Assembly: GCA_963575745.1 (NCBI GenBank) | Contig: CAUYUJ010005647.1 | Coordinates: forward strand, 368,932 to 432,931 | Direction: 5' to 3' | Length of the DNA stretch: 64,000 nucleotides | From: Prorocentrum cordatum | Lineage: Eukaryota > Sar > Dinophyceae > Prorocentrales > Prorocentraceae | Part shown: positions 1,187 to 62,212 of the stretch, in pieces | How the letters are laid out: the number at the start of each line of letters is the position of its first letter | Numbering within the stretch: the first letter of the stretch is position 1 | Position numbers and translations under genes: made by a program | Notes under the pieces: model-generated | The model's database searches: none | What the model was told of the DNA's origin: nothing | Seen by the model: only the letters and a program-made list of their open reading frames with translations

Positions 1187-1223
<37 letters not shown>

Positions 1224-1524
1224 CTGATGCTGATGCTGATGCTGATGCTGATGCTGATGCTGATGCTGATGCTGATGCTGATGCTGATGGTGATGGTGAT
1301 GGTGATGGTGATGGTGATGGTGATGGTGATGGTGATGATGATGCTTTGTGATGACGGTGGTGACGATGGTGATGATGATGGTGGTGACGATGGTGATGGT
1401 GATGATGAAAATGACGATGGTGATGATGGTGGTGGTGATGATGATGGTGAAGATGATGATGATGGTGAAGATGATGATGATGATGATGATGATGCTGATG
1501 CTGATGCTGAAAGTGATGATGATA

Positions 1525-1568
<44 letters not shown>
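1183..1568. repeat. (ATG)n microsatellite with (GCTGAT)n and (GGTGAT)n variants
   Basis: Nearly 400 bp of ATG triplets with blocks of GCTGAT (about 1222-1285) and GGTGAT (about 1286-1335). It directly abuts the 3' end of the LINE1 element; the same ATG triplet repeat abuts the element's 5' end at 9937. Open frames here encode only poly-Met, poly-Asp or poly-His and are artefacts. Confidence 0.9.
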
Positions 1569-2354
1569 CCACGCATCCAAGAAGGTCTGGAGCTCCCCGC
1601 TCGATACAGCCTCCCGAGGCCATGGCCTTTCCCTCTGGCGCTGCGGACGCAAGGCCTGACCCGTGCCCAAGGCACACTCGCAGACTCGCCTGAAAGCCTT
1701 GAGGCCGCCGACCGCCCCAGCCAAAGGCAGGCGATCAGCAAAGCACCTGAGCCCTCACGGCGACTCAGCTCGCAGACAGCTCGGCGCGCCACACCAGAGC
1801 AACAGCCCCCTGGGCACCAGGCCACAGACGGGGCGACTTGCTCTGAGGTGACCTTCGGAGGCGATCCTGACGGTCGGCCATAGCCTACCACCACGGTTCG
1901 GCCTCCGCCTGGCGCGCACAGAGCACAGAGCGGGCTGGAGCGCAGCAAGCTGCGCGGGCTGTCGCGCCCAAGGCGCGCCAGCAGCTACATTAAACGGAGG
2001 CGCCGAAGGCGCCAAGCGACAGGCGTTGCCCAAGAGGGCGGGAGGGAGTGAACCCTGGCGTGTGCCGAGCCCCACGGGGTACAGCCTACGCCACGGGGTC
2101 CCTCCCCCCCCAGAGGCAGCGGCTCGGCGCAGGCATTCGTGATCCTTGGACCCGCCTGCGCCCGAGCTGATCAGCATGCTGGCTCGATCGGAGGCAACCA
2201 TGGCGGTGTGCGAACCTACCACCACGGTCCAGCCTCCGACTGGCTGCACAAGCATAGCTGCCTTGCAGAGGCAGCCCGAACAGCCGTGTGCAAACCACAC
2301 GTCTGTTCGCGTGATGGCAGACAGAGCGAGGCGGCAAGCGTGGCAAGAAAGAGC
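1569..2354 (-). other. 3' untranslated region of LINE1, with an internal duplication
   Basis: Lies between the ORF2 stop (TAG, 2357-2355) and the (ATG)n tract. A segment containing CCTACCACCACGGT, followed by a related tract, occurs at about 1890 and again at about 2215, so the 3' region holds two diverged copies of a 40-70-bp unit. No poly(A) tail or coding domain is seen. Confidence 0.5.
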
Positions 2355-5300
2355 CTAGCCACCATCGACGCGCCTGCGCATGCGCCGCAGCGGCTCAGGG
2401 TCGCCGATGCCGCCCGCCCCAGCGGGCTGCAGGCCGCGCTTCAGCCTGCTGAACACCGCCTTCTGCCTATCGTTCTTGGGGGCCTTCGGGCACTCCGCTG
2501 CCAAGCCCGCCAGCCTGCGGCTCTGCGTCCAGTAGCCGCACTTCACGCAGAAGAGGTGGCTACCAGCCCGCCACAGGTCGTGGGAGCCGTGGGCGTCCAA
2601 TCCCCACCAAAGCGGGAGCTGCGGCGGCGGCAGCGGCGGGGTCCCGCCACCGGCCCCAGAAGGACCCCCCGACGTCGGTGGGCTACCCCGCTGGCCGCCG
2701 CCAGGCGCGCCGCTGCCGACTCGCCCTGCACTCGCCTCGTCTCCTTCCCCCTGTGCTGGTGCCTCGCTGGCCTGACTGTGGGACAGCAGCGCCGCGCCCG
2801 CCGTGATGAGCGCCGCGGCTGCAGCGACCGATCCGCCACTGCTCTCGGCCCCTGAGGCCCAGGAGCCCGCGAGCGCGTCGCCCCTGCCCGCGCACCGCTG
2901 GCAGGCCCAGACCGTGTCGCCGTCGACGTCCAGCCACGTCCCGTGCCGCCCGCACGTGCGCTGCGGGCAGTCGGGGAAACTGCAGTGAGCTCGCCATCGC
3001 ATCTTGCAGCCGCGCCAATCGCACCGAACTGCTCCCAAGCCTGGGCCCTCGTGCCCGTCCGCTGCCGTGAGCTCGGCGTCGCCTTCCTGCATCGCCGAAC
3101 CCAGCCAGCAGAAGACCTTCTTGACGAGGCGATCCTGCCTGCGGCTCCTATCTCGCACGTCGTCGTCGCTGGGATGCATCTGCGCGCCCTGCACGGCGCG
3201 GGCATCGGCGCTGTGATTGCCCCGACGCTGCCAGGCCGTGACGCGCTCCGCCTGCACGTCCGCCAGCGTGGCGTGAGCTTTCACCTTGTGGATGGTGACG
3301 CTGCCGACCCCCACGTCGTCGAGGGCCGCCCAGAACCGCGCCCAAAGCTCGCGGTAAGGCCGCTGCCACTGCAGGCACCACGCCCTGCCCGCCGCGAAGC
3401 CGTCCACGAGCAGCTTGCAGTCAGTGAAGATCCGCACAGGTGGTGGGCAGCTCTGGATGCCCTCGATGGCCGCCACCAGCTCCGCTGCCCCTGATTCTTG
3501 GGGGTACGGCCAGGGGAGCGGTCCGAAGAGGCTGACTGCCTCGCTGTCGGGTCCCATGACGACGACCGCCCAGCCGCCGCGCGCCGAGACGAGGCTGGGG
3601 TCCAGAACGCTCCCGTCCGTGAAGAGGTCGCCCGAGAGCGGCTGCCCCACCAAGTCGGCATGACCCTCCTTCCGCGCCTCCCTGGCGTCGGTGGGCGGTG
3701 GCAGGGTCCTTCGGTGCTCGGGTGCAAGAGCGCGGGACCAGAGCGGGCCCTCGTCTCCCTCGACGCTGGCCACACCGACGATGGTGCGAAAGGGGATGTC
3801 GCCAGGGGGGCACCGCTCGCCCGCCTCCTCGTTGGAGATCCACTCGCCGCGGCTGACCTCGGTGGCTGGGCACTGCCACGCCAGGTGCCGCACTGTGCCG
3901 TGCGCAGGGCATCCCCTGGGGCACCAAGGAGAGGAGGCCAATGGGCGTTCCTCAAAGAACCGCCGCGCCACGGGCCAGAGACATCCGACCAGCGCGTTCG
4001 TGGCCGAGCTCATCTGCTTGGCCTTCTGCTTGCTCATGCGCTTGCGTGCCAGTGTGCGCCTGATACTGGACAGGGCGCCTCCATCGCGCAGGTGCTCCAG
4101 TCCTGGGTGCTTGCTCGCTGCCCGCCACAGCGCCCTCTCGTGGCCATCGGCGATGTGCTTGGCGAGCGTGGAGGCCCCCAGGGTCCGTAGGTCCAGCGGC
4201 TGCTGCTTGTCGTTGGTGAGCAGCCCTGGCAGTGTGGCGGTCCAACCCAGGCGGTGGCAGGCTAACACGCACGCAGCAGCTGGCCCGCGCCCAGCCAACG
4301 CCTCAGGCCCGCCTCTGGCCAGCAGCGCCCTAGCCCCTGCGAAAGCGCTGCCCAGGGCCCTCAGGTCCCTGCTGTCCGAGTTGAACTGCACCGCCTTGGC
4401 CCATGCGACAATGGGCAGCGCCACGTGGCCGTGCAGCGGGTCGCAGTGCAGACGCTTGCTGAGGAGGAAACTGAGGCTGAGGCTCTTGCCTGGGCCGTGC
4501 CCATGGTGAACGGCGTTGACCTGGCTCCTCCACTTGTTGAGCTGCGACGTCGGCCAACCCACCACACTCAGCCCATAGCGAGTAGCAGGCCGCAGACCAG
4601 TGTTCGCCACTCGAGCTGCTGCTGGGGTCTCCTGCGAGCGGATGGCGTGCAACCTCTGCAACTGGGATGCCGCCTTCGTATGCCGCTTCTCGAGGACCAC
4701 GAACGCTTGGCCGTCGAGGCAGTAGTCGACCCCCAGGTTCTTGACCGAGTCGGCGATGGGAAAGGCGATGCCTCCCATTAGCTTGGCGACCAGTGATGCC
4801 AGCTCTGGCGAGCTGGCCAGCAGCTCGCTCTTTGCTGCTGAGACCTTGCAGCATAGGGCCTCCAACTGTGAGATGACCGCCTTCGTCGCCTGGGCCACGT
4901 AGGCTGCGACCTGCGCCATCGGTCCGTGGCAGCCGACGCAGCAGTCGTCGAACATGATGGCGAGGGTGACTCTGGGCTCGAGCGCCCGCCACAGCCGCGC
5001 ATGCTCGTCCGCGAGCACCAGCAGGCCGCACCTGAGGAGCCGACCCGCATGCGAGCACCCCGCGATGAGTCCCGCATCCAGCAGGTAGGGCTCGGATACG
5101 CTACCGTCAAGCATGAAGCGGCGCTCCCCCGCGTACAGGGTGAGGGCCATGCCCAGCAGGCCCCGAGGGTATCCAGCCAGGACGCCACGGCCCTGGATGA
5201 TGGCCAGGTCCACGAGCTCGTAGGCCTTCCATAGGTCGATGAGTGCCGCTGCTGCTCCTTCTCCACGTGCGTGTGCGGCTTCTGCGCGCAGGGCCTGCCA

Positions 5301-8300
5301 CCAGACTGCCTCTTCGGCCGCACGGCCGCGCCCCCCCCAGAAGGCGCCTGCGACGCCAGGGTCAATCTGCGAGTCCCAGCGCCGCGCCACGGGCTGACGG
5401 ACTCGGCTCCATAGGCGCGGGAGCCAGCCCAGCAGCCCAATGGGCCGAAACCCGCCCTGGGGCTTCGGGAGCATGACCACGAGCGAGTCCGTGATGACGT
5501 CGGGCCAGCCGCCGATCTCCTCACACTTCATCCCGAAGTCAACGACTGCCTCCAGAAGCTCGTCGCTGAGGTCCGCGGCCTTCCGCGGGTTGAGGCGGTC
5601 GCTGCCGACGCCAGTGCCGTGCCTGAAGGTCCTGGCGGCCGCGCGCAGCTCATCGGCTGAGGGCCTGGGGAGGGCCTCGCCGCCAGAGCGCGGGAGCTGC
5701 GGCCGAAACCTATCGCGGTCTCGCCTGACCCGCCAGACCTCTGTTGACCATTGCTTCGCCACAAGCTTCACTCGGTCTGGGGCATGGGCTGGGGCCCCGT
5801 TGTACTCGTCGTCAGGGGCCCATGCCCTGGGCCCGCGCCGATAGGCGTGGAGCCCGCCTGCGCCTTCAGCCATGGAGTGACGGATCCACTCCTTGAAGCC
5901 CTGGCCACGAATGACGGCGAAGGCTGCTCCATCGGCCTCCGCCTCGGCCCTGGCCTCAGCGGCCCAGTCGGCCAAGGGGAGCAGGCTGGGGCACTCGGCG
6001 GCCAGGGCCACGCGTGCTGCCCACTGGGCTCCGAGGGGAAGGCCCACCGTGGACGGGGGCTTGGGCGCCCTGCTGCTCGCATGCGCTGCTCCATCGCCGT
6101 TGCTGCTGACGTCGCCGTCGGAGCTGCAGTCGCTGCCCCCGCGCCTGCCGCCGTGGTACCGCATGAACTGCTTGACACCCTGCAGGTAGCAGTAGTGCTC
6201 GTCGTCAGCGATGGCCCAGGCGTCGGGGTCGCTGTCCTCCAACTCGCGGACCTTGCGCGCATACTTGTTGCGCACGCCCTCGGAGGCCTGCCAACTGTCC
6301 TCGCACATGTCGACTGCCCGAGCCCAGCGGGCTGCCGCTCGCTCGCCAAACGGCCGAGCCGAGCTGGCGCGAGGGGGCGGGGGTGGGATCGCGCTGATAC
6401 TCTCCGCTGATGCGGCCCCCCTTCCCGCCCCCGACGCCGACGCATCGCTGCCGCCCTCTCCAGTGGCCCTCGCACTGCTGGCTACCGCTGCCGCTGCGAG
6501 GCTCGCAAAGGAGTTAACTTGGGGCCGGGGTGGGATCACGCTGTCCCCGTCCGCAGATGCGGCTCCCATCCCTGCCCCGTCAGACTGGCCCTCTGTGACG
6601 CCGACCTGCTCACCCTCGTCGCCATTGCCACCCTCGTACTGGCTGAGGCGCTCGTAGGCGTAGTGCGTGCAGAGGTCCATCCACTCTGCCTTGTCCTGCT
6701 GCGCGTCGGGGGCGTGCAGGCGCGGCAGCCAGCCGTTGGCCAGTCGCGCCAGTGCGCGCCTGACGCCTGCCTCACCCACCTCGATGGCACTCCACCCCCC
6801 CGCGTCCGCTGGGCAGGTGGCTAGCCTGCAAAGCGCTGGAGGTAGGGGAGCGACGTCGCCTATGCCATTCTCCGTCTCGGTATAGCCGTGGACGATGGGC
6901 GCGCCTGGGAGGGGCCTGCTGTAGTCACCCCGCTCTTCCAGCCAGCGCTTGGACTCGTGGTAGCTGTCCACCGTCCTGCGCAGCTCCTCCTCCCAGCAGT
7001 CGTGGTCGAGAAGGCCGAGCTGCTGAAGAATGCGCACCAGCTCCTGCCTGCCTGCGCCGCCGCGACGCCAGGCAGACTCGCATACTTCCCTGGCCGTCTG
7101 CAGGCGACGCCCAAAGTTCTGGGCCAGGCCCGTCGCAATGTGCGTCGGCAGCCCTAGCATGCGAAAGATGTAGGGCACGCAATTTTCCAACCACTCGTTC
7201 TCGTCCGCGTAGTGGTCGGGGTTGCTGGGGTTGGAGACCCACCCGCGGGCACGGCGCCCGAGCACCCGCTTGTAGCGCTTGATTGCCCTGGCCTCCATCC
7301 GCTCCGCCGCCCGCTCGTCGTTGTCCAGTTGGCACTGGACGAGCCCTGCCGAAGAAACGGCATCCGAGCCTCCGCCGACGAGCTGATGGATCTGCGTGAA
7401 ATAGTCGCTCAGATGCATGAGCTTCTTGCCCTTGTAGCTGGCCTTGGGCCCCTTGATGGGGCGCGCCCTGGCCTGCGTGCCGAAGCTGAAGCTCGGCGGG
7501 CCCCCGCGGCCACGGTACAAGCTGGCGTCGTCGGGCGGGATCTGGTAGATCCAGACGAGCTCGTTCTCCACACCCTCGCATAGGGCGCGGTAGACCTCCG
7601 TCATGGCCTGCATGTCCCCCCCCACTCCGATAGCGTCCCGCAGCTCGTCGTGGTTCCACTCCTTGGCTGGCATAGGCCCATATGGCCTGTCCTTGGGAAA
7701 GGCTGCGGGGCCCTTGACGCGGAAGGACTGGCCAAGGTCGCCCTGACAAGCCAAGTAGAGCTTGACCCCGATGTGGGGCCTGCACGGGTTGGCGTAGCCC
7801 TGCTCCGTCATATTGAGGCGCTCGCACCCGCTGACGAGGTCCAGCATATCTACACTGACGATGAACCAATCGAGCTCAGATGGCTCCTTGACGGGGGAAT
7901 GCTGGCAGGTGCCCTTGCCCGAGTCGACGACGTGGCCGCCCAACTTGCGCAGCCAGTGCCCCGCGCGGAGGTGGAACCTGTCAGGCTCGACGTTCCAGTC
8001 CCCCGCCAGGACCCAGGGCTTGCCGGTGCGCTTCAGCGTGGCTCCAACCTGCTGCAAGACGCCCTGGCTGTGCTCGCCCACGTCGTCGTTGTCCAGGTAG
8101 ACCGAGCCCAGCAGGAAGCCTCCAGGCACGACGCCGTTGATGTGCACGATGGTCGCGCGGCCCTCGGCCGCGTGGCAGCTGTCCTTGCTGCCGCCAGCGC
8201 CTGGCCCGCACATGCCACGCGAGGTGCGCACGGCCACGCCAGTGCCGCTGCTGACGGCGCGCTGGAGGCTTGCGCCGACCGAGCTCACCCCTGGGGTCAG

Positions 8301-8507
8301 CACGGCGCTCCAGCCAACCTGACGACACCACTGCTCCTGCTCCGCGGCGCGGTAGCCGTTGAGGTGGTGCTCCTGGATGCACAGTGCGTCGCCGAGGTGC
8401 GCCTCCGCCACCGCCTGCTGTTGTGGGTCCTGCTGCTCGCCGAGGATGGTGGTGAAAGGGCCCCATCCGCTGCCGTTGAGGCTCACGATGGTGAAGTGAG
8501 GGCGGCT
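2355..8507 (-). CDS. LINE1 ORF2: endonuclease-reverse transcriptase-RNase H polyprotein
   Basis: About 2050 residues counted from the first codon past the ORF1 stop; start codon unknown. Residues 1-250 form an exonuclease-endonuclease-phosphatase domain: SLNG (Asn11), CIQEHH (Glu46), LAGDWN (Asp170, Asn172), SELDWF (Asp213), CRPHIG (His245). The RT lies at roughly 4700-5700: MLPKPQGGFRPI, motif A LIDLWKAYE (about 5235), motif C IMFDDCC (about 4945), where MFDD replaces the usual F/YADD. A knuckle CPRGCPAHG..HLAWQCP follows (3862-3928). RNase H spans about 3190-3640: FTDGS, GAAELVAA, FTDCK, KVKAHAT, NHSADA, so all acidic residues are present. C-terminal Cys/His motifs (CDWRGC, CSFPDC, CQRCAG, CVKCG) may bind nucleic acid. 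It would nick the target and copy the element's RNA. No ATG precedes the endonuclease closely, and the same frame stays open upstream across ORF1 to an ATG at 9881. Confidence 0.85.
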   Translation of the reverse strand, partial: SRPHFTIVSLNGSGWGPFTTILGEQQDPQQQAVAEAHLGDALCIQEHHLNGYRAAEQEQWCRQVGWSAVLTPGVSSVGASLQRAVSSGTGVAVRTSRGMCGPGAGGSKDSCHAAEGRATIVHINGVVPGGFLLGSVYLDNDDVGEHSQGVLQQVGATLKRTGKPWVLAGDWNVEPDRFHLRAGHWLRKLGGHVVDSGKGTCQHSPVKEPSELDWFIVSVDMLDLVSGCERLNMTEQGYANPCRPHIGVKLYLACQGDLGQSFRVKGPAAFPKDRPYGPMPAKEWNHDELRDAIGVGGDMQAMTEVYRALCEGVENELVWIYQIPPDDASLYRGRGGPPSFSFGTQARARPIKGPKASYKGKKLMHLSDYFTQIHQLVGGGSDAVSSAGLVQCQLDNDERAAERMEARAIKRYKRVLGRRARGWVSNPSNPDHYADENEWLENCVPYIFRMLGLPTHIATGLAQNFGRRLQTAREVCESAWRRGGAGRQELVRILQQLGLLDHDCWEEELRRTVDSYHESKRWLEERGDYSRPLPGAPIVHGYTETENGIGDVAPLPPALCRLATCPADAGGWSAIEVGEAGVRRALARLANGWLPRLHAPDAQQDKAEWMDLCTHYAYERLSQYEGGNGDEGEQVGVTEGQSDGAGMGAASADGDSVIPPRPQVNSFASLAAAAVASSARATGEGGSDASASGAGRGAASAESISAIPPPPPRASSARPFGERAAARWARAVDMCEDSWQASEGVRNKYARKVRELEDSDPDAWAIADDEHYCYLQGVKQFMRYHGGRRGGSDCSSDGDVSSNGDGAAHASSRAPKPPSTVGLPLGAQWAARVALAAECPSLLPLADWAAEARAEAEADGAAFAVIRGQGFKEWIRHSMAEGAGGLHAYRRGPRAWAPDDEYNGAPAHAPDRVKLVAKQWSTEVWRVRRDRDRFRPQLPRSGGEALPRPSADELRAAARTFRHGTGVGSDRLNPRKAADLSDELLEAVVDFGMKCEEIGGWPDVITDSLVVMLPKPQGGFRPIGLLGWLPRLWSRVRQPVARRWDSQIDPGVAGAFWGGRGRAAEEAVWWQALRAEAAHARGEGAAAALIDLWKAYELVDLAIIQGRGVLAGYPRGLLGMALTLYAGERRFMLDGSVSEPYLLDAGLIAGCSHAGRLLRCGLLVLADEHARLWRALEPRVTLAIMFDDCCVGCHGPMAQVAAYVAQATKAVISQLEALCCKVSAAKSELLASSPELASLVAKLMGGIAFPIADSVKNLGVDYCLDGQAFVVLEKRHTKAASQLQRLHAIRSQETPAAARVANTGLRPATRYGLSVVGWPTSQLNKWRSQVNAVHHGHGPGKSLSLSFLLSKRLHCDPLHGHVALPIVAWAKAVQFNSDSRDLRALGSAFAGARALLARGGPEALAGRGPAAACVLACHRLGWTATLPGLLTNDKQQPLDLRTLGASTLAKHIADGHERALWRAASKHPGLEHLRDGGALSSIRRTLARKRMSKQKAKQMSSATNALVGCLWPVARRFFEERPLASSPWCPRGCPAHGTVRHLAWQCPATEVSRGEWISNEEAGERCPPGDIPFRTIVGVASVEGDEGPLWSRALAPEHRRTLPPPTDAREARKEGHADLVGQPLSGDLFTDGSVLDPSLVSARGGWAVVVMGPDSEAVSLFGPLPWPYPQESGAAELVAAIEGIQSCPPPVRIFTDCKLLVDGFAAGRAWCLQWQRPYRELWARFWAALDDVGVGSVTIHKVKAHATLADVQAERVTAWQRRGNHSADARAVQGAQMHPSDDDVRDRSRRQDRLVKKVFCWLGSAMQEGDAELTAADGHEGPGLGAVRCDWRGCKMRWRAHCSFPDCPQRTCGRHGTWLDVDGDTVWACQRCAGRGDALAGSWASGAESSGGSVAAAAALITAGAALLSHSQASEAPAQGEGDEASAGRVGSGAPGGGQRGSPPTSGGPSGAGGGTPPLPPPQLPLWWGLDAHGSHDLWRAGSHLFCVKCGYWTQSRRLAGLAAECPKAPKNDRQKAVFSRLKRGLQPAGAGGIGDPEPLRRMRRRVDGG

Positions 8508-9711
8508 ACCCCCGCTTCCCCCCTCTGCGGATCCCCGCGGAGCGGAGTCCTTGGAGGAGCTTCTGGGCACGAAGCTTGCGCATGGCGGCGGCTGCGGCGG
8601 CCTTGCCTGCAGCGTCGCCTGCCTCCTCGCCGTTGCCCACCTCGCCCGACACGGCCTCTGCTGCCCCCTCCTCGGTGGCCTCTTCCTCCAGGGAGTCCAA
8701 GATGACGTCGACGTCCTTCTCGTCGATCTCCTGCTCGTCGCCGCTCCCGTCGCGCTCCGCCTCGGCACCTGCTGCGGCAACGCGCTGTGCCAGACGCCGC
8801 AACTCTGCGACTTGGCCGTCCCATTGCTCAGCGAAGCCAGGGGCGAGCATGCCTGAGCACTGATTAAGAGCGGCGAGGAAAGCGGTGGCTCGCTCACCCT
8901 CGCTGAGCTGGGCGCCTGGGGACGCTGGGGCAGCCGCCCCTCGCGGCCCTTCCTCCCGCTGCTGTGCTTCACGCTCGCGGAGCTGTTGCGCCAGGAGGTT
9001 GTCGATGAGCGCCTGGAGCTCCTTCTCGCCGGCCTGACTCTGCGCATGTTTGCCCTCCAGCTCGAGCTTGTGGGCCTGTAGTTCAGCGAGCTGCTTGTCC
9101 GCCGCCGAGATCCTGCTCGCCAAGGCCGCCGTGGTGGCCTCCTGGTTCTTCTGCTTGCGCTCCAACTCACTGAGCTGGACTGATGTGGGCTTGGTTGCTG
9201 CCAGCTCGTTTTCCAACTGCTGCGCCTCCTGCCGTTTGGATTCGAGAATGGCCTCCGCGCCGTCCACGCCCTCGATCTTCTTGATCTCACTTCGTAGCTT
9301 GCCCAATCGGCGGACACGTTCTGACTTGCCGTCAGGCTGCAACCCGACGCCTGCCGCCCCAGCGCCACCGCCATCGACTCCTGGTCCTGCTTGGCTGCTG
9401 GTCTCCAACTTTTTGACCTTCCTCCGCAACTGGTTGAGCTCGTGGCGTTCTCTGGCGTCCAGTTGTGACATGCCACTCCACCAAGAACTCGTACCAGAAC
9501 CGCTTTCCCACCAGTCGTAGCCGCAACTCCTGCAGACATGCCGAGAGCCCCAATTCTTCTTGGCTCCGCACTGAGGGCAATCCCAGACCCTGGGCGCTGC
9601 ACCGCTGCCGCCCGCGCCTGGAACTTGGCCGCCCCGCTGTCCACGGCCACTACTGGCTCTGCCGCCGCCACCGCGCGCGGCACCGCGAGCACCACCTCCT
9701 CGTCCTGCCAT
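8506..9711 (-). CDS. LINE1 ORF1: zinc-ribbon and coiled-coil protein
   Basis: 401 residues from the first ATG in this frame (9711-9709) to TAG (8508-8506). Residues 1-40 are Gly/Arg/Ala-rich. Residues 43-63 read WDCPQC...N...CRSC, close to a RanBP2-type zinc finger (W-x-C-x2-C, Asn, C-x2-C). From about residue 85 to 300 the chain is charged and heptad-like with few helix breakers, suggesting a long coiled coil, and the C-terminus is Glu/Asp-rich then basic. By position it is the RNA-binding, trimerising ORF1 protein of LINEs (inference from family layout). It overlaps ORF2 by a couple of bases in the +1 frame. The frame is also open upstream into the spliced leader, but without an ATG; the first part of the overlapping ORF2 frame (from ATG 9881) looks equally protein-like, so a frameshifted true N-terminus is possible. 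Confidence 0.75.
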   Translation of the reverse strand: MAGRGGGARGAARGGGGRASSGRGQRGGQVPGAGGSGAAPRVWDCPQCGAKKNWGSRHVCRSCGYDWWESGSGTSSWWSGMSQLDARERHELNQLRRKVKKLETSSQAGPGVDGGGAGAAGVGLQPDGKSERVRRLGKLRSEIKKIEGVDGAEAILESKRQEAQQLENELAATKPTSVQLSELERKQKNQEATTAALASRISAADKQLAELQAHKLELEGKHAQSQAGEKELQALIDNLLAQQLREREAQQREEGPRGAAAPASPGAQLSEGERATAFLAALNQCSGMLAPGFAEQWDGQVAELRRLAQRVAAAGAEAERDGSGDEQEIDEKDVDVILDSLEEEATEEGAAEAVSGEVGNGEEAGDAAGKAAAAAAMRKLRAQKLLQGLRSAGIRRGGKRG

Positions 9712-9899
9712 TGGTCGAGCCCGCCGCGGCTGGGCTCCCAATCGGGCGACTGGGGCCGGGTGTCGGTGATGTAATATGGAAAGAGCTGTGGCCCCAAGGA
9801 CCACACTGAAAGCTTGGAAGATTGGGAATCTGACCCAAGAATGGACGCGACGGCTAGAGCCAGCCCCATGAGACCAGACATCTGCCCTGATCGCTCCAC

Positions 9900-9914
9900 C
9901 TTGAGCCAAAATGG
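9900..9914 (-). other. Relict (truncated) dinoflagellate spliced leader
   Basis: Minus strand reads CCATTTTGGCTCAAG, the last 15 nt of the DinoSL, immediately after a full copy. Loss of exactly the first seven bases (TCCGTAG) fits trans-splicing to the internal TAG of an older, genome-encoded leader, the known relict-SL signature of retroposed dinoflagellate mRNAs. Confidence 0.9.
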
Positions 9915-9933
9915 CTTGAGCCAAAATGGCTAC

Positions 9934-9936
<3 letters not shown>
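9915..9936 (-). other. Full-length 22-nt dinoflagellate spliced leader (DinoSL)
   Basis: The minus strand from 9936 to 9915 matches the DinoSL over all 22 nt (begins TCCGTAGCC, ends GGCTCAAG). It forms the exact 5' end of LINE1 and abuts (CAT)n. It is not an SL RNA gene: no donor GT or SL-RNA intron follows, only a second, truncated SL and then the LINE 5' sequence. Confidence 0.93.
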
Positions 9937-9973
<37 letters not shown>

Positions 9974-11879: not shown

Positions 11880-12777
11880 TAAAAGGTGATCCATGACCTT
11901 GTACCAGGATTATTATTGAAACTGGGACCCGCCCTGCGCTGTGCCGCCCTCTGCCGTCTGCCATAGTCCTGCTTCCGCCTGGGTAGCATCGGCAGGGTTC
12001 GAATGAGATCTCGGGAGAGGGGCAGTGGGTCTGGTGATCATGCTTCGAGCTCCAGCCAAGCCTTGCACCCACCGTCATAGGATTTCTCCGTGCATATGAG
12101 GTTGAGTTACGCAGTGCTACTCAGACAAAAGCGTCAGACGGCCTTTCCGTTGACCTGAAGAGACTCGAGTGAGGAGGGCAGGATGGAGGAGGCAGGAGGG
12201 AGGAAGGACGAGGAAGGACGGAGTTCTGGGATTGCAAAGTTGTTGACGCCGATGGACTCTCAGCGGAGTGCGGCGCTTCAGCTAGCAGAGCTTCAGTAAG
12301 AAACTAAATAGTTCTGCACGGGCACCAAATGGCAAGTACAGTGACAGTACGGGCCAGGGAGAGTGCGCACAACGAGACAGCAAGACAGCAGCAAATACGG
12401 TCCTGGTGTGAAACTGGCGAAGTACCCCTGACAGCAGCAAAGAGTGTGAACCGCACTCGTGTGAGAGGGAGGGGGGAGGGAAGAGGGAGGAGGCGGCAGG
12501 GAGAAGGCAAGAAGTCGTCGAACTTGGTGCTGCCCTGCTCGAGCGGCTCCGCAAGGCTGAACGCGAGAAGCTCCGCGGCGGCGTCACCTGCCGCCCTCGC
12601 CGTCGGCTGTCTGCCTCATCCCCGGCGTCGTATGGGGGCGCTCACCTCTCCAGCGTTTGGTCGGGCATGTCCTCCTACGGGCGGATTTTGAACGAAAAAC
12701 ACAGGAGAAAAAAAAACACCTGGCGAAGGACACAGCCATATGCAGTTGTGAGTACCGTCGTTGTGAGTATCGCAATC
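11880..12777. other. About 0.9 kb without recognised genes
   Basis: Unique-looking sequence with a GGGAGG-rich patch at 12460-12510. GGGTTCGAATGA at about 11997 resembles a tRNA B box, but no cloverleaf can be folded around it. Confidence 0.35.
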
Positions 12778-14165
12778 GGTGGAGATCCCTATGGGACCAC
12801 GAAAGGCTGTCCTGGGCGGGGGAGACGCATGTGAGTGCAGCCACTGGGGCCTTCGGTGGAGCTCCCTATAGTGGCCACGAAACGCTTTCCTGGGCGGGCG
12901 GAAGCGCATGCGAACTGCGCCACTGGGGCTTTCGGTTGAGCTCCCTGTGGGGCCACGAAACGCTGTCCTGGATGGGGGAGACGCATGCGAGTGCAGCTGA
13001 GGCGTTCAGTGGAGCTCCATATGGGGCCACGAAACGCTGTCCTGGGTGGGGGAAACGCATCCGAATTGCGCCACGGGGGCTTCGGTGGAGCTCCATATGG
13101 GGTCACGAAACGCTGTCCTGGGTGGGGGAAACGCATGCGAGAGCAGCCACTGGGGCCTTCGGTGAAGCTCCCTATGGGGCCACGAAACCTTGTCCTCGGC
13201 GAGGGAGACGCATGCGAGAGCAGCCATTGGCGCCGTCGGTGGAGCTCCGTGTGGGGCCACGAAACGCTGTCCTGGGCGGGGGAGACGCATGCGAGAGCAG
13301 CCACTGGGGCCTTCGGTGGAACTCCCTATGGGACCGCGAAACGCTGTCCTAGGCCGGGAAGACGCATGCGTGAGCAGCCACTTGGGCTTTCGACCACGAA
13401 ACAGTGTCCTAGGTGGGGGAGACGCATGCGAGAGCAGCCACACGGGCCTTCGGTTGGGCTTCCTATGGGCCCACGAAGCGCTGTCCTGGGTGAGGGAGAC
13501 GCATGCGAGAGCAGCCACTGGCGCCTTCGGTGGAACTCGCTGTCCTGGGCGGGGGAGACGCATGCGAGAGCAGCCACTGGCGCCTTCGGTGGAGCCCCGT
13601 GTGGGGCCACGAAACGCTGTCCTGGGCGGGGCAGACGCATGCGAGAGCAGCCACTGGCGCCGTCGGTGGAGCTCCTTATGGGGCCACGAAACGCTGTCCT
13701 GGGTGGGGGAGACGCATGCGAGAGCAGCCACTGGCGCCTCGTGTGGAGCTCCCTATGGGGCCACGAAACGCTGTCCTGGGAGGGGGAGACGCATGCGAGA
13801 GCAGCCACTGGCGCCGTCGGTGGAGCCCCCTATGGGGCCACGAAACGCTGTCCTGGGTGGGGGAGACCCATGCGAGAGCAGCCACTGGCGCCGTCGGTGG
13901 AGCTCCCTATGGGGCCACGAAACCTTGTCCTGGGTGGGGGAGACGCATGCGAGAGCAGCCACTGGCGCATTCGGTGGAACTCCCTATGAGGCCACGAAAC
14001 GCCGTCCTGGATGGGGGAGACGCATGCGAGAGCAGCCACTGGCGCCTTCGGTGGAGCTCCCTATGGGGCTACGAAGCCCTGTCCTGGGCGTGGGAGACGC
14101 ATGCGAGAGCAGCAAATTGGGCCTACGGTGGAGCCCCCTTATGGGGCCCCGAAACGCGTGAGGGG
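12778..14165 (+). repeat. Satellite A: 77-bp tandem array, about 18 units
   Basis: The unit is the shared half-module GTGGAGCTCCCTATGGGGCC-ACGAA plus a specific half ACGCTGTCCTGGGTGGGGGA-GACGCATGCGAGAGCAGCCA. Period 77 bp in the regular middle part (for example 13676, 13753, 13830). Because 77 is not a multiple of three, long open frames on both strands are artefacts. Confidence 0.95.
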
Positions 14166-14387
14166 TGTGCCGATGGAGGGGGGAGGGGGAGGGAGGACGG
14201 GGAGGAGGAGGGGGAGGAGGAGGAGGAGGAGGAGGAGGAGGAGGAACGCGGGGCACCGTCTCTTCAAAACGAGGACCCAACACCACAGGATGGTTGCAGA
14301 AAAAACAAAACATAGTCAAACTTATCCAGGCGAACGACCCAACCATACGCAAGTGTGAAAACCGCAGGGCAGGTGGGACGAAGCAAG
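14166..14387 (+). repeat. (GGA)n and conserved tail module following satellite A
   Basis: (GGA)n at about 14200-14245, then GGGGCACCGTCT..TTCAAAACGAGGACCCAACA..CACAGGATG. The same (GGA)n plus tail occurs after satellite B at 15580-15690, so both arrays end in the same 3' module. Confidence 0.8.
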
Positions 14388-15580
14388 GGGAATTCCTCAT
14401 GGGGCCACGAACCGTGTGAGGGGTGCACCAAACTGGCGCGGGGCCGCCATGCGAACCCTGCCACTGGGGCCTTCGGTGGAGCCCCCTATGGGGCCACGAA
14501 CCGCGTGAGGGGTGCGCCAAAATGGTGCGGGGCCGCCATGCGAACCCTGCCTTTGGGGCCTTTGGTGGAGCTCCCTGTGGGGCCACGAACCGTGTGAGGG
14601 GTGTACCAAACTGGCGCGGGGCCGCCCCTGCCACTGGGGCGTTCGGTGGAACCCCCTATGGGGCCACGAGCCATGTGAGGGGTGCACCAAACTGGCGCGG
14701 GGCCGCCATGCGAACCCTGCCTCTGGGGCCTTCGGTGGAGCCCCCTATGGGCCCACAAACCGTGCGAGGGGTGCGCCAAAAAGGCGCGGGGCCGCCATGC
14801 GAACCCTGCCACTGGGGCCTTCGGTGGAGCTCCCTATGGGGCCACGAACCGTGTGAGGGGTGCACCAAACTTGCGCGGGGCCGCCATGCGAACCCTGCCA
14901 CTGGGGCCTTCGGTGGAGCTCTTTATGGGGCCACGATCCGTGTAAGGGGTGCGCCAAAATGGTGCGGGGCCGCCATGCGAACCCTGCCAGTGGGGCCTTC
15001 GGTGGAACTCCCTATGGGGCCACGAACCATGTGAGGGGTGCACCAAACTGGCGCGGGGCCGCCATGCGAACCCTGTCTCTGGGGCCTTCGGTGGAGCCCC
15101 CTTATGGGGCCAAGAACCGTGCGAGGGGTGCGCCAAAATGGCGCGGGGCCGCCATGCGAACCCTGCCACTGGGGCCTTTCGGGGGAGCTCCCTGTGGGGC
15201 CACGAACCGTGTGAGGGGTGCACCAAACTTGCGCGGGGCCGCCATGCGAACCCTGCCTCTGGGGCCTTCGGTGGAGCTCCCTAACGGGCCACGAACCGTG
15301 AGGTGTGCGCCAAAATGGCGCGGGGACGCCATGCGAACCCTGCCACTGGGGCGTTCGGTGGAGCCCCCTATGGGGCCACGAACCGTGTGAGGGGTGCGCC
15401 AAAATGGTGCGGGGCCGCCATGCGAACCCTGCCACCGGGGCCTTCTGGTGGAGCTCCCTATGAGGCTACGAACCGTGTGAGGGGAGCGCCAAAACGCGGG
15501 GCCGCCATGCGAACCCTGCCACTGGGGCCTTCGGTGGAGCTCCCTATGGGGCCACGAAACGCTGTACTGGGTGGGTGAAA
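14388..15580 (+). repeat. Satellite B: 88-89-bp tandem array, about 13 units
   Basis: Unit: the half-module shared with satellite A (CTTCGGTGGAGCTCCCTATG..GGGCCACGAA) plus a different half, CCGTGTGAGGGGTGCACCAA-ACTGGCGCGGGGCCGCCATG-CGAACCCTG. Spacing 89 between units at 14860 and 14949. The last unit (15540-15575) switches back to the satellite A half (ACGCTGTACTGGGTGGG). Confidence 0.95.
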
Positions 15581-45487: not shown

Positions 45488-45700
45488 GATGGTCCTCCTC
45501 CTCCTCATCCTCCTCCTCCTCCTCCCTCTCGTCCTTCTCCTCCTACTCCTCTTCCTCCTCGCCCGCCTCCGCCTCCTCTTTCTCTTTCTCGTCCTCCTCC
45601 TCATCATCATCATCATCTTCCTCTTCCACCTCCTCCACCTCCTCCTGCTCTTCTCTCCACCTCCCTTCCCCTTCCTCCTTGACGTCCTCTCCTCCCCGTT
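45488..45700. repeat. (TCC)n microsatellite, 3' flank of LINE2
   Basis: TCC triplets with TCATCATCAT at 45600-45620. Same triplet as the 5' flank at 38514-38709. Confidence 0.92.
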
Positions 45701-53690: not shown

Positions 53691-54036
53691 CTACTGCCCC
53701 CCTCCCCCCCGCCTGTCCCCCGCCCACGCCTCCCCCTCCTCTCCCCTGCCCACGCCTCCCCCTCTCCCCTCCCCCGTTTCCCCGTGCCCACTCCGCTCTC
53801 GCCCTCCCTCGTTCGAAAACCTGCCGTCCATCAGCACAACCCCAACCAGACGCTGATGAAGCTGGCTCTGACCCGCCTGGCCTTCACCGCCTCCGTGTCT
53901 GGCCGCCTAGGCTGGCCACCGGAGCGTGCCGATCGCCCCGAGAAGCGGCGAGCGCGCTGTCTGCGAGGGGAGGAACAAGAGGAGAAGGAGAAGATAGAGC
54001 AAGAGCAGGAGGAGGGTCCGTAGCCAGTTTGGCTCG
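53691..54036. other. C-rich then unrecognised sequence
   Basis: CCCCTCC words 53695-53810. Open frames beyond (NPNQTLMKLALTRLAFTASV near 53840) look protein-like but are short. Confidence 0.3.
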
Positions 54037-54560
54037 ATGATCCGCTTGGGATCCCGAGGCTGCGGTCGAGGAGGTTTCGCGCACGTACGCGCGCGGGAGC
54101 CAAAGCATCGGGACGAAGAAGGAGAAGAAGAAGAGGAAACCCGTGGTGACAATCGTGGCTCCGCACACAGTCCTGGAAGTGGAGGCCGAGGAGGTCATCG
54201 ACACGTTGCTGGCGCGGTTCGTGCTGCCCAAGCCGTGGGAGGTGGATGCGTGCGGCGAGGGCCATGGCATCGGAATAGGGGACTCGGAGTTCTGCGCGGA
54301 GCGTGACTCGGACGGGGGCCACCTCGACACGGTGTGCAACGGCGTGGGGTTCTTCTTCATCGGGAGGCGGAACCCGTGGGGAGGCAGAACCTGCCATGGA
54401 GGGCGCGGAGGGCGACTTGGTTGGCGACGCCGCGGCGCCTGTGCTGGGTGCCTCCGTGGTGGATGCCGCGGGCAGCTGCTGCGTCGAGGGCAGCTTTTCG
54501 CGCGTCGGCGACGTTGACGTGGGAGGGCGACTCTGCTGGCGGCGCCGGAGCGCCTGTGCC
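54037..54560 (+). pseudogene. Exon-like open frame, unrecognised protein
   Basis: From a TGA at about 54035 the frame is open to a stop at 54515-54517 with no ATG. It reads WDPEAAVEEVSRTYARGSQS, a Lys-rich linker, then VVTIVAPHTVLEVEAEEVID..VLPKPWEVDACGEGHGIGIG..DTVCNGVGFFFIG. Composition is natural and non-repetitive. After about 54370 the +1 or -1 frame (GEAEPAMEGAEGDLVGDAAA) looks more coding, suggesting a frameshift. It could be an internal exon or an element fragment; no domain is recognised. Confidence 0.35.
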
Positions 54561-62014: not shown

Positions 62015-62053
<39 letters not shown>

Positions 62054-62072
62054 ACATCAACATCAACATCAA

Positions 62073-62109
<37 letters not shown>

Positions 62110-62212
62110 GCCATCATCAACATCATCAGTATCACCATCATCATCATCATCATCATCATCACCATCATCATCAGAATCATCATCATAATCATCATCAACA
62201 TCATCATCGGGA
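62014..62212. repeat. (ATC)n microsatellite with AACATC variants
   Basis: ATC triplets with (AACATC)n at 62050-62072. Confidence 0.95.

Follow-up and report, generated by a model that had tools for sequence, protein, structure and literature searches.

Spliced leaders at the 5′ ends of a LINE family inserted in ATC microsatellites of the dinoflagellate Prorocentrum cordatum suggest passage through host trans-splicing

A LINE located in the 64,000-nucleotide stretch of DNA analysed here (the window, on contig C5647), from the bloom-forming alga Prorocentrum cordatum, begins with a double dinoflagellate spliced leader (DinoSL), which raises the question of whether its transcripts are trans-spliced by the host before they are copied back into the genome. 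A previous reading of the sequence alone (the sequence-only reading) had proposed at least two rounds in which transcripts are trans-spliced, copied, inserted and spliced again, with the host supplying a new 5′ end each time. LINEs need a complete 5′ end and a means of transcription, and host trans-splicing appears to serve here; known solutions include internal promoters and ribozymes, according to the accessible part of the source (PMC8190864).

The junction proved to be as the sequence-only reading had described it (minus strand, 9936 to 9900): a complete 22-nt DinoSL is joined without a gap to its own last 15 nucleotides, the relict, and the minus strand reads, from its 5′ side, (ATC)n, TCCGTAGCCATTTTGGCTCAAG, CCATTTTGGCTCAAG and GTGGAGCGATC. 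The relict is cut after the GTAG inside the leader, as expected from a 3′ splice site at that point. With up to three mismatches allowed, the leader 21-mer has three matches in the window, in comparison with a mean of 0.00 in 100 shuffles; they correspond to the leader at 9936, to the relict overlapping it, and to a decayed leader at 54018-54038. The latter (TCCGTAGCCAGTTTGGCTCGAT, 54017-54038 on the plus strand, with three mismatches) is probably an old retrocopy. The 5′ edge of the LINE is uncertain by 2-3 nt, since the flanking ATC repeat might also account for one C and for the T at position 9936.

Also in agreement with that reading, the double leader forms the 5′ end of an element with its own reverse transcriptase (RT) and endonuclease, an 8,368-bp LINE (Table 1). 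Its ORF1 protein carries what we take to be an RGG-rich N-terminus, a CxxC...CxxC zinc-ribbon-like motif and a coiled-coil-like middle, and three proteins of 320-321 residues match it along their length with identities of 98, 82, and 81%. The RT region of the ORF2 protein (P0001) is 27-32% identical to 14 proteins, most of them with Pfam RT or endonuclease domains, and the three RT aspartates are invariant across 15 aligned sequences. The Pfam model RVT_1 is absent from P0001 by itself, yet present in 10 of these 15 sequences; as Pfam missed the RT with ORF2 alone, the assignment rests on the homologues and on the aligned residues. The endonuclease match to PF03372 (E=1.2e-4, 22.4 bits) is slightly below the cut-off of 24.5, and the profile of the 15 sequences matches AP endonucleases and the L1 endonuclease. 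The RNase H domain lies after the RT, a trait of I-group LINEs; its residues could be aligned and the profile matches a solved RNase H, PF00075 being absent from P0001 and present in two of the 15 aligned members. The aligned residues of the three domains presumably have the corresponding catalytic roles. Altogether, the RT with its aspartates, the APE-like endonuclease on its N-terminal side, the constant 3′ end and the target repeat on both sides identify an APE-type LINE. No match at E≤0.001 was obtained with the first 700 residues of ORF2 as query (8000 candidates scored); in the viral collection the double leader was unmatched and ORF2 had no confirmed relative. No Rfam family reached the gathering threshold in the window, and thus no known ribozyme was found at the 5′ end of the LINE.

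No in-frame ATG for ORF2 exists between 8663 and residue 151, which falls inside the endonuclease. The frame of ORF2 is open through the whole of ORF1 back to the leader (window 9929-8506, minus strand), with in-frame ATGs in the 5′ UTR (9881, 9869) and within ORF1; when ORF1 was shuffled synonymously, this frame stayed open in just 4 of 5000 trials. Translation of ORF2 may use an upstream start or a +1 shift at GGGTAGC. The GAT arrays at both ends of the LINE have the same strand, and the only other pure GAT runs (≥5 units) in the window, whose GC content is 60.9%, lie near 45603, 48326, and 62015-62161. Two long minisatellite arrays with 77-bp and 89-bp units are located upstream of the LINE, at 12776-15558.

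Table 1. Coordinates of the LINE and of its parts in the window.
Feature	Position	Strand	Remarks
Full-length LINE insertion, 8368 bp	1569..9936	-	Both ends abut GAT/ATC arrays; same ends in second full-length copy
(GAT)n flank at LINE 5′ end	9937..9973	+	GAT array itself 9935-9973, abutting leader
Complete 22-nt DinoSL	9915..9936	-	Reads TCCGTAGCCATTTTGGCTCAAG (DinoSL, D = T); first bases of LINE
15-nt DinoSL relict (last 15 nt of older leader)	9900..9914	-	Reads CCATTTTGGCTCAAG
5′ UTR after leader	9712..9899	-	Starts GTGGAGCGATC; same start, GTGG or ATGG, in other copies
ORF1, 401 aa	8506..9711	-	Homologous proteins
ORF2: endonuclease, reverse transcriptase, RNase H, Cys-rich C-terminus	2355..8495	-	
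APE-type endonuclease domain	7773..8375	-	E98, D222, N224, D265, H297 of P0001
Reverse transcriptase domain	4389..5636	-	D1143, D1239, D1240
RNase H domain	3195..3638	-	D1683, E1728, D1748, H1797, D1820
3′ UTR	1569..2354	-	74-nt internal direct repeat (77%); ends GGATGCGTGG; no poly(A)
(GAT)n-rich array at LINE 3′ end	1187..1568	+	Abuts element end at 1569

A genome-wide search (4,128,499,153 bases in 21,875 contigs) was then used to examine the 5′ ends of other copies. A leader-free query, consisting of 400 bases of the 5′ region of the LINE, gave 40 scored matches among 202 candidates. In all of the 30 loci first returned, window included, DinoSL stands directly before GTGG[A/C]GCGATC and ATC repeats stand before the leader; several of these 30 leaders carry one substitution. 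The 40 copies comprise 34 with a single leader, four with leader and relict, one with the leader at a later AG, and one noisy copy, and every one has ATC repeats within 30 bases upstream. The pattern of the LINE start, with up to three mismatches, was found at 84 places. Of these, 38 belong to the 40 copies already counted; 26 more were read and the other 20 stand outside the count. The 26 additional copies all have the leader, five with a relict, and ATC repeats before it (by eye). Thus, the 66 copies, window included, are distributed into 55 with a single DinoSL, nine with DinoSL and the 15-nt relict, one with a shifted junction, and one noisy, and all of them follow ATC repeats. Mutated leaders are present in L109, L119, L120, L163, L167, L169, and L172, among others.

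Full-length copies with a conserved non-SL 5′ UTR were the finding against which the sequence-only reading had staked its claim; DinoSL was instead located directly upstream of the LINE in 65 of the 66 copies, the remaining one being indel-noisy with a leader-like string. No alternative 5′ UTR was found among the 66 copies read, a sample biased toward close relatives of the window copy, with very divergent copies outside the reach of the search and 5′-truncated ones necessarily absent. Not all copies are independent: L102 is the same insertion as L027/L070, and L110 and L117, which have similar flanks, may be one duplicated insertion. In the copy with the shifted junction (L150), the leader is fused to GGCAGATG, 13 nt further on, just after a CAG; alternatively, the 13 skipped nt could have been lost by deletion at a short match of AGG.

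One copy, L070 on contig C2, matches the window LINE from end to end, with 97.7% identity in 8320 aligned nt. It carries a single leader, lacking exactly the 15 nt at its 5′ end, and both of its ends lie inside ATC repeats; by sequence, its 5′ end is the predicted parent form of the window copy. Between the two copies, dN/dS is 0.37 for both ORF1 (6 synonymous and 7 replacement changes) and ORF2 (71 and 81), values that point to selection at the protein level. In L070, ORF2 is broken by small indels and one stop.

A tree of 30 copies was built on 1880 nt; L146, L176, L180, and three relict copies starting with ATGG were not included. In this tree, the window copy (L092) is sister to the single-leader L093, the relict copy L115 is sister to the single-leader L111, and the relict copy L105 stands among single-leader copies. 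Over 370 nt, the closest neighbour of relict copy L146 has a single leader, and further relict copies were found in the ATGG-starting subfamily (three) and in the GTGG group (two). As relict copies are scattered over the tree, the extra 15 nt were gained at least three times. Shared variants occur in none of the 22 leader columns (first 30 copies minus three with relicts) and in 10 of the 188 columns of the 5′ UTR (all 30 copies), too few for a verdict from this comparison. The last 332 nt of the 3′ ends of L111 and L115 (L138 and L140) are only 79-81% similar to those of the window, and the 1.9 kb at the 5′ end of L115 are 98% similar to L112 and L096, a combination for which an exchange of 3′ ends is possible.

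Of 20 3′ regions sampled, 14 reach the element end, four gave no match, one runs into N, and one is too short. The 14 readable ends stop at GCGTGG in 13 cases and 2 nt earlier, at GCGT, in the other, and all of them run into ATC repeats. A poly(A) tail is expected at the 3′ edge of a copied mRNA; none was present at these 14 ends or in the two full-length copies. The insertion target is thus an ATC repeat on both sides, inside which the length of a target-site duplication is unreadable. A 5′ end that is mRNA-like and a 3′ end that is not suggest that an enzyme of the element recognises the 3′ UTR, rather than a generic copying of polyadenylated mRNA.

The leader is widespread beyond this family. 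Its exact 21-nt sequence has 14,218 sites in the genome (7201 + 7017), and the reversed control has none. We read 87 of the first 100 sites (contigs C1 to C114), which are not a random sample. A trinucleotide (period-3) microsatellite directly precedes 53 of these 87 sites; control positions show this adjacency in 59 of 2646 cases across the loci of the first 67 sites, and in 41 of 1280 across the window. Among those first 67 sites, 40 follow a period-3 repeat, with units CCT (28), AGG (11), and ATC (1, a LINE of the window family). A relict (≤2 mismatches) is present at 13 of the 87 sites, and one site has two relicts. Three SL-headed repeat loci outside the window family were read further, and all three carry an RT: L143, after CCT repeats, encodes an endonuclease and an RT (E=1.2e-15) in a single frame of 1869 aa; L142 has an RT (2.3e-6, Pfam score below the curated cut-off), also after CCT repeats; and L144, after GGA repeats, has tblastn matches (best 1e-153) for endonuclease, RT, and RNase H, its Pfam RT match (4.2e-5) scoring below the curated cut-off. 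These loci were chosen because they looked repeated, so they give no estimate of the RT-bearing fraction.

Other arrangements were noticed at DinoSL sites. In L144, L024, L054, L057, L072, and L087, DinoSL is followed by full-length, decaying leader-like strings (TCCGGAGCCGTTTTGGCACAGG in L144) in place of 15-nt relicts, as if the splice acceptor had been an AG immediately upstream of the older leader, such as a GGA repeat could supply. A common leader module like GGATACCGCTAGTCCGCGG was recognised by eye at L004, L010, L012, L026, L030, L032, L036, L045, L074, L078, L080, L082, and L089; the similarity among L030, L032, and L036 is limited to about 110 nt, and L030 leads to an RT frame. On contig C39, DinoSL lies in each of three nearly identical units (L059, L060, and L061); these have no upstream microsatellite and are possibly SL RNA genes. 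In other collections, DinoSL alone was found in one viral contig and in two contigs of bacterial bins. The former (L001, a 7.2-kb IMG/VR contig labelled viral) has exact DinoSL copies at 2746-2766 and 2893-2913 (minus strand), 147 nt apart; one of the latter (L002, Dehalococcoidia bin) opens at 1-60 with (CAT)n and DinoSL, followed by bacterial-looking frames, and is possibly a chimaeric assembly with dinoflagellate DNA.

Our main reading, to which we assign a probability of about 0.8, is that the window copy is a full-length member of an APE-type LINE family whose transcripts would enter host SL trans-splicing, be copied up to the leader, and be inserted in ATC microsatellites. According to this proposal, read-through from upstream DNA would transcribe a LINE copy located within (ATC)n repeats, and host trans-splicing would add DinoSL to its RNA. 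If the acceptor were the AG ending the encoded leader (AAG/CAAG), the leader would be renewed without growth; the GTAG inside the leader would leave a 15-nt relict, and a later AG would produce a shifted junction. The enzyme of the element would then cut another ATC repeat and insert there a copy of the RNA, made from the 3′ UTR up to the leader. Splicing, read-through transcription and the use of the CAAG acceptor are all deduced from genomic DNA. Since the relict was kept and GTAG used, the RNA behind a copy with leader and relict began upstream of the source leader, suggesting transcription from flanking DNA. Use of GTAG in every cycle would accumulate relicts, yet 55 of the 66 copies have a single leader, so either the CAAG acceptor or the absence of splicing must dominate; renewal at the final AAG, the acceptor that we propose, would explain these single leaders. 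A leader newly added at alternative acceptors would likewise account for the relict copies and for the junction of L150.

The simplest reading of the window copy is at least two passages through this cycle, and the part of the sequence-only reading that called for transcripts spliced, copied, inserted and spliced again is supported by the relict-less copy with 97.7% identity and by the leaders of 65 copies. Its further suggestion of a new 5′ end from the host in each round was borne out in part: this is evident only where a relict or a shifted junction is present, and the double leader is a minority form.

The main competing explanation, which we consider unlikely, is that the leader is a fixed 5′ UTR captured once and inherited without further trans-splicing, with an RNA start at its first base keeping DinoSL and relicts arising as rare accidents. 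The predominance of single-leader copies fits it, and so does a published view, in the accessible part of a review, that DinoSL itself is possibly a promoter of retrogenes (PMC6050394). Three leader substitutions also recur, at positions 7 (G>A, three copies), 14 (T>G, two), and 2 (C>T, two); inheritance, duplicated loci or chance may be behind them, those at position 2 being perhaps junction effects. Given that such mutations are common to several copies, part of the family may inherit its leader. However, the relicts in nine of the 66 copies are cut exactly at the internal GTAG, on at least three separate branches, and these, like the leader at a new AG in L150, need a newly added leader; in addition, the other LINE families would each need to have captured the same leader.

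Much less probable is a tandem duplication by slippage of the 15-nt unit within one leader, at the DNA level and independently of splicing. An AG precedes both units, so three duplication registers yield an identical sequence, but these are the only three of 1362 modelled duplications (lengths 5-40) of a one-leader 5′ end that reproduce the window 5′ end, and the arrangement nevertheless recurs in nine copies of the family and at the 13 sampled DinoSL sites mentioned above. The same 37-nt tandem of leader and relict is a known mark of dinoflagellate retrogenes, reported for 6213 of 6544 retrogene transcripts in the accessible part of the source (PMC12014239). Slippage was therefore rejected on the contrast between 3/1362 and 9/66. 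An accidental junction, in which a template switch (such chimaeras are known for other LINEs) or a chance insertion set a host mRNA leader before a truncated LINE, was also rejected for the family as highly improbable, since the same junction recurs in the second full-length copy and in many insertions found with both the leader-free query and the LINE-start pattern.

Returning to the proposed trans-splicing cycle, the copy-to-copy record (no relict, one relict, shifted junction) makes it testable. It also bears on the identity of the enzyme behind the many SL-tagged dinoflagellate retrogenes: as DinoSL sites and LINEs both adjoin trinucleotide microsatellites, the LINE machinery is a concrete suspect. 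Against it, the accessible part of a review terms the enzyme type behind dinoflagellate retroposition unknown and favours LTR elements as the likelier engine (PMC6050394). A broader proposal, on which we are evenly divided, is that several dinoflagellate LINE families may routinely go through trans-splicing in their life cycle, which would rebuild their 5′ end in every round so that they need no promoter of their own, and that these very microsatellite-targeting LINEs may write SL-tagged host retrogenes. If this is true, many genomic DinoSL tags would denote LINEs instead of host genes, and some of the rounds would be recorded in the number of relicts.

Dinoflagellate retrogenes with DinoSL relicts were reportedly described by Slamovits and Keeling in 2008. 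The tandem of leader and relict on retrogenes was thus already known, and what is new, in the literature searched, is a leader-headed LINE family in a dinoflagellate; no description of such families was found there, subscription papers being mostly outside the search. In the accessible parts of the following sources, the transcripts of dinoflagellates are presumed polycistronic, with trans-splicing resolving them (PMC10666404), and a LINE RT is placed about 17 kb from a leader-tagged viral copy in a study on RNA viruses (PMC10235124).

The following comparisons likewise refer to the accessible parts of each source. Dinoflagellate retrogenes share with the window LINE the 22+15-nt signature, the splice logic and the multiple rounds (PMC12014239, PMC3229502, PMC7245778), but their recycled RNAs are host mRNAs (PMC6050394), whereas in the window family endonuclease and RT are encoded by the tagged RNA itself and almost all copies read carry the tag. 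In Schistosoma mansoni, six genomic SL exons are merged to transposable elements, and the authors suggest trans-spliced, retro-transcribed elements; however, they allow for chimaeric assembly, and a family-wide 5′ end, a series of relicts or a target site are not mentioned in those parts (PMC5832876). The trypanosomatid L1Tc/ingi elements with Pr77 are also LINEs in a host with SL trans-splicing and polycistronic transcription, but they have an internal promoter, a ribozyme, and unspliced transcripts, whereas the window family appears to use the host leader (PMC8190864). The SymbioLINE elements of Symbiodinium, also LINEs of a dinoflagellate, combine an upstream ORF with one that carries the RT; they differ in that SymbioLINE-Dnmt has a DNA methyltransferase in ORF1, and a 5′ leader is not mentioned in the accessible text (PMC5890265). 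Finally, target-specific LINEs of microsatellites or multicopy genes resemble the window family in the confinement of insertion to a repeat, but they use restriction-like endonucleases, whereas the window family combines an APE-type endonuclease with an ATC target (PMC4640811).
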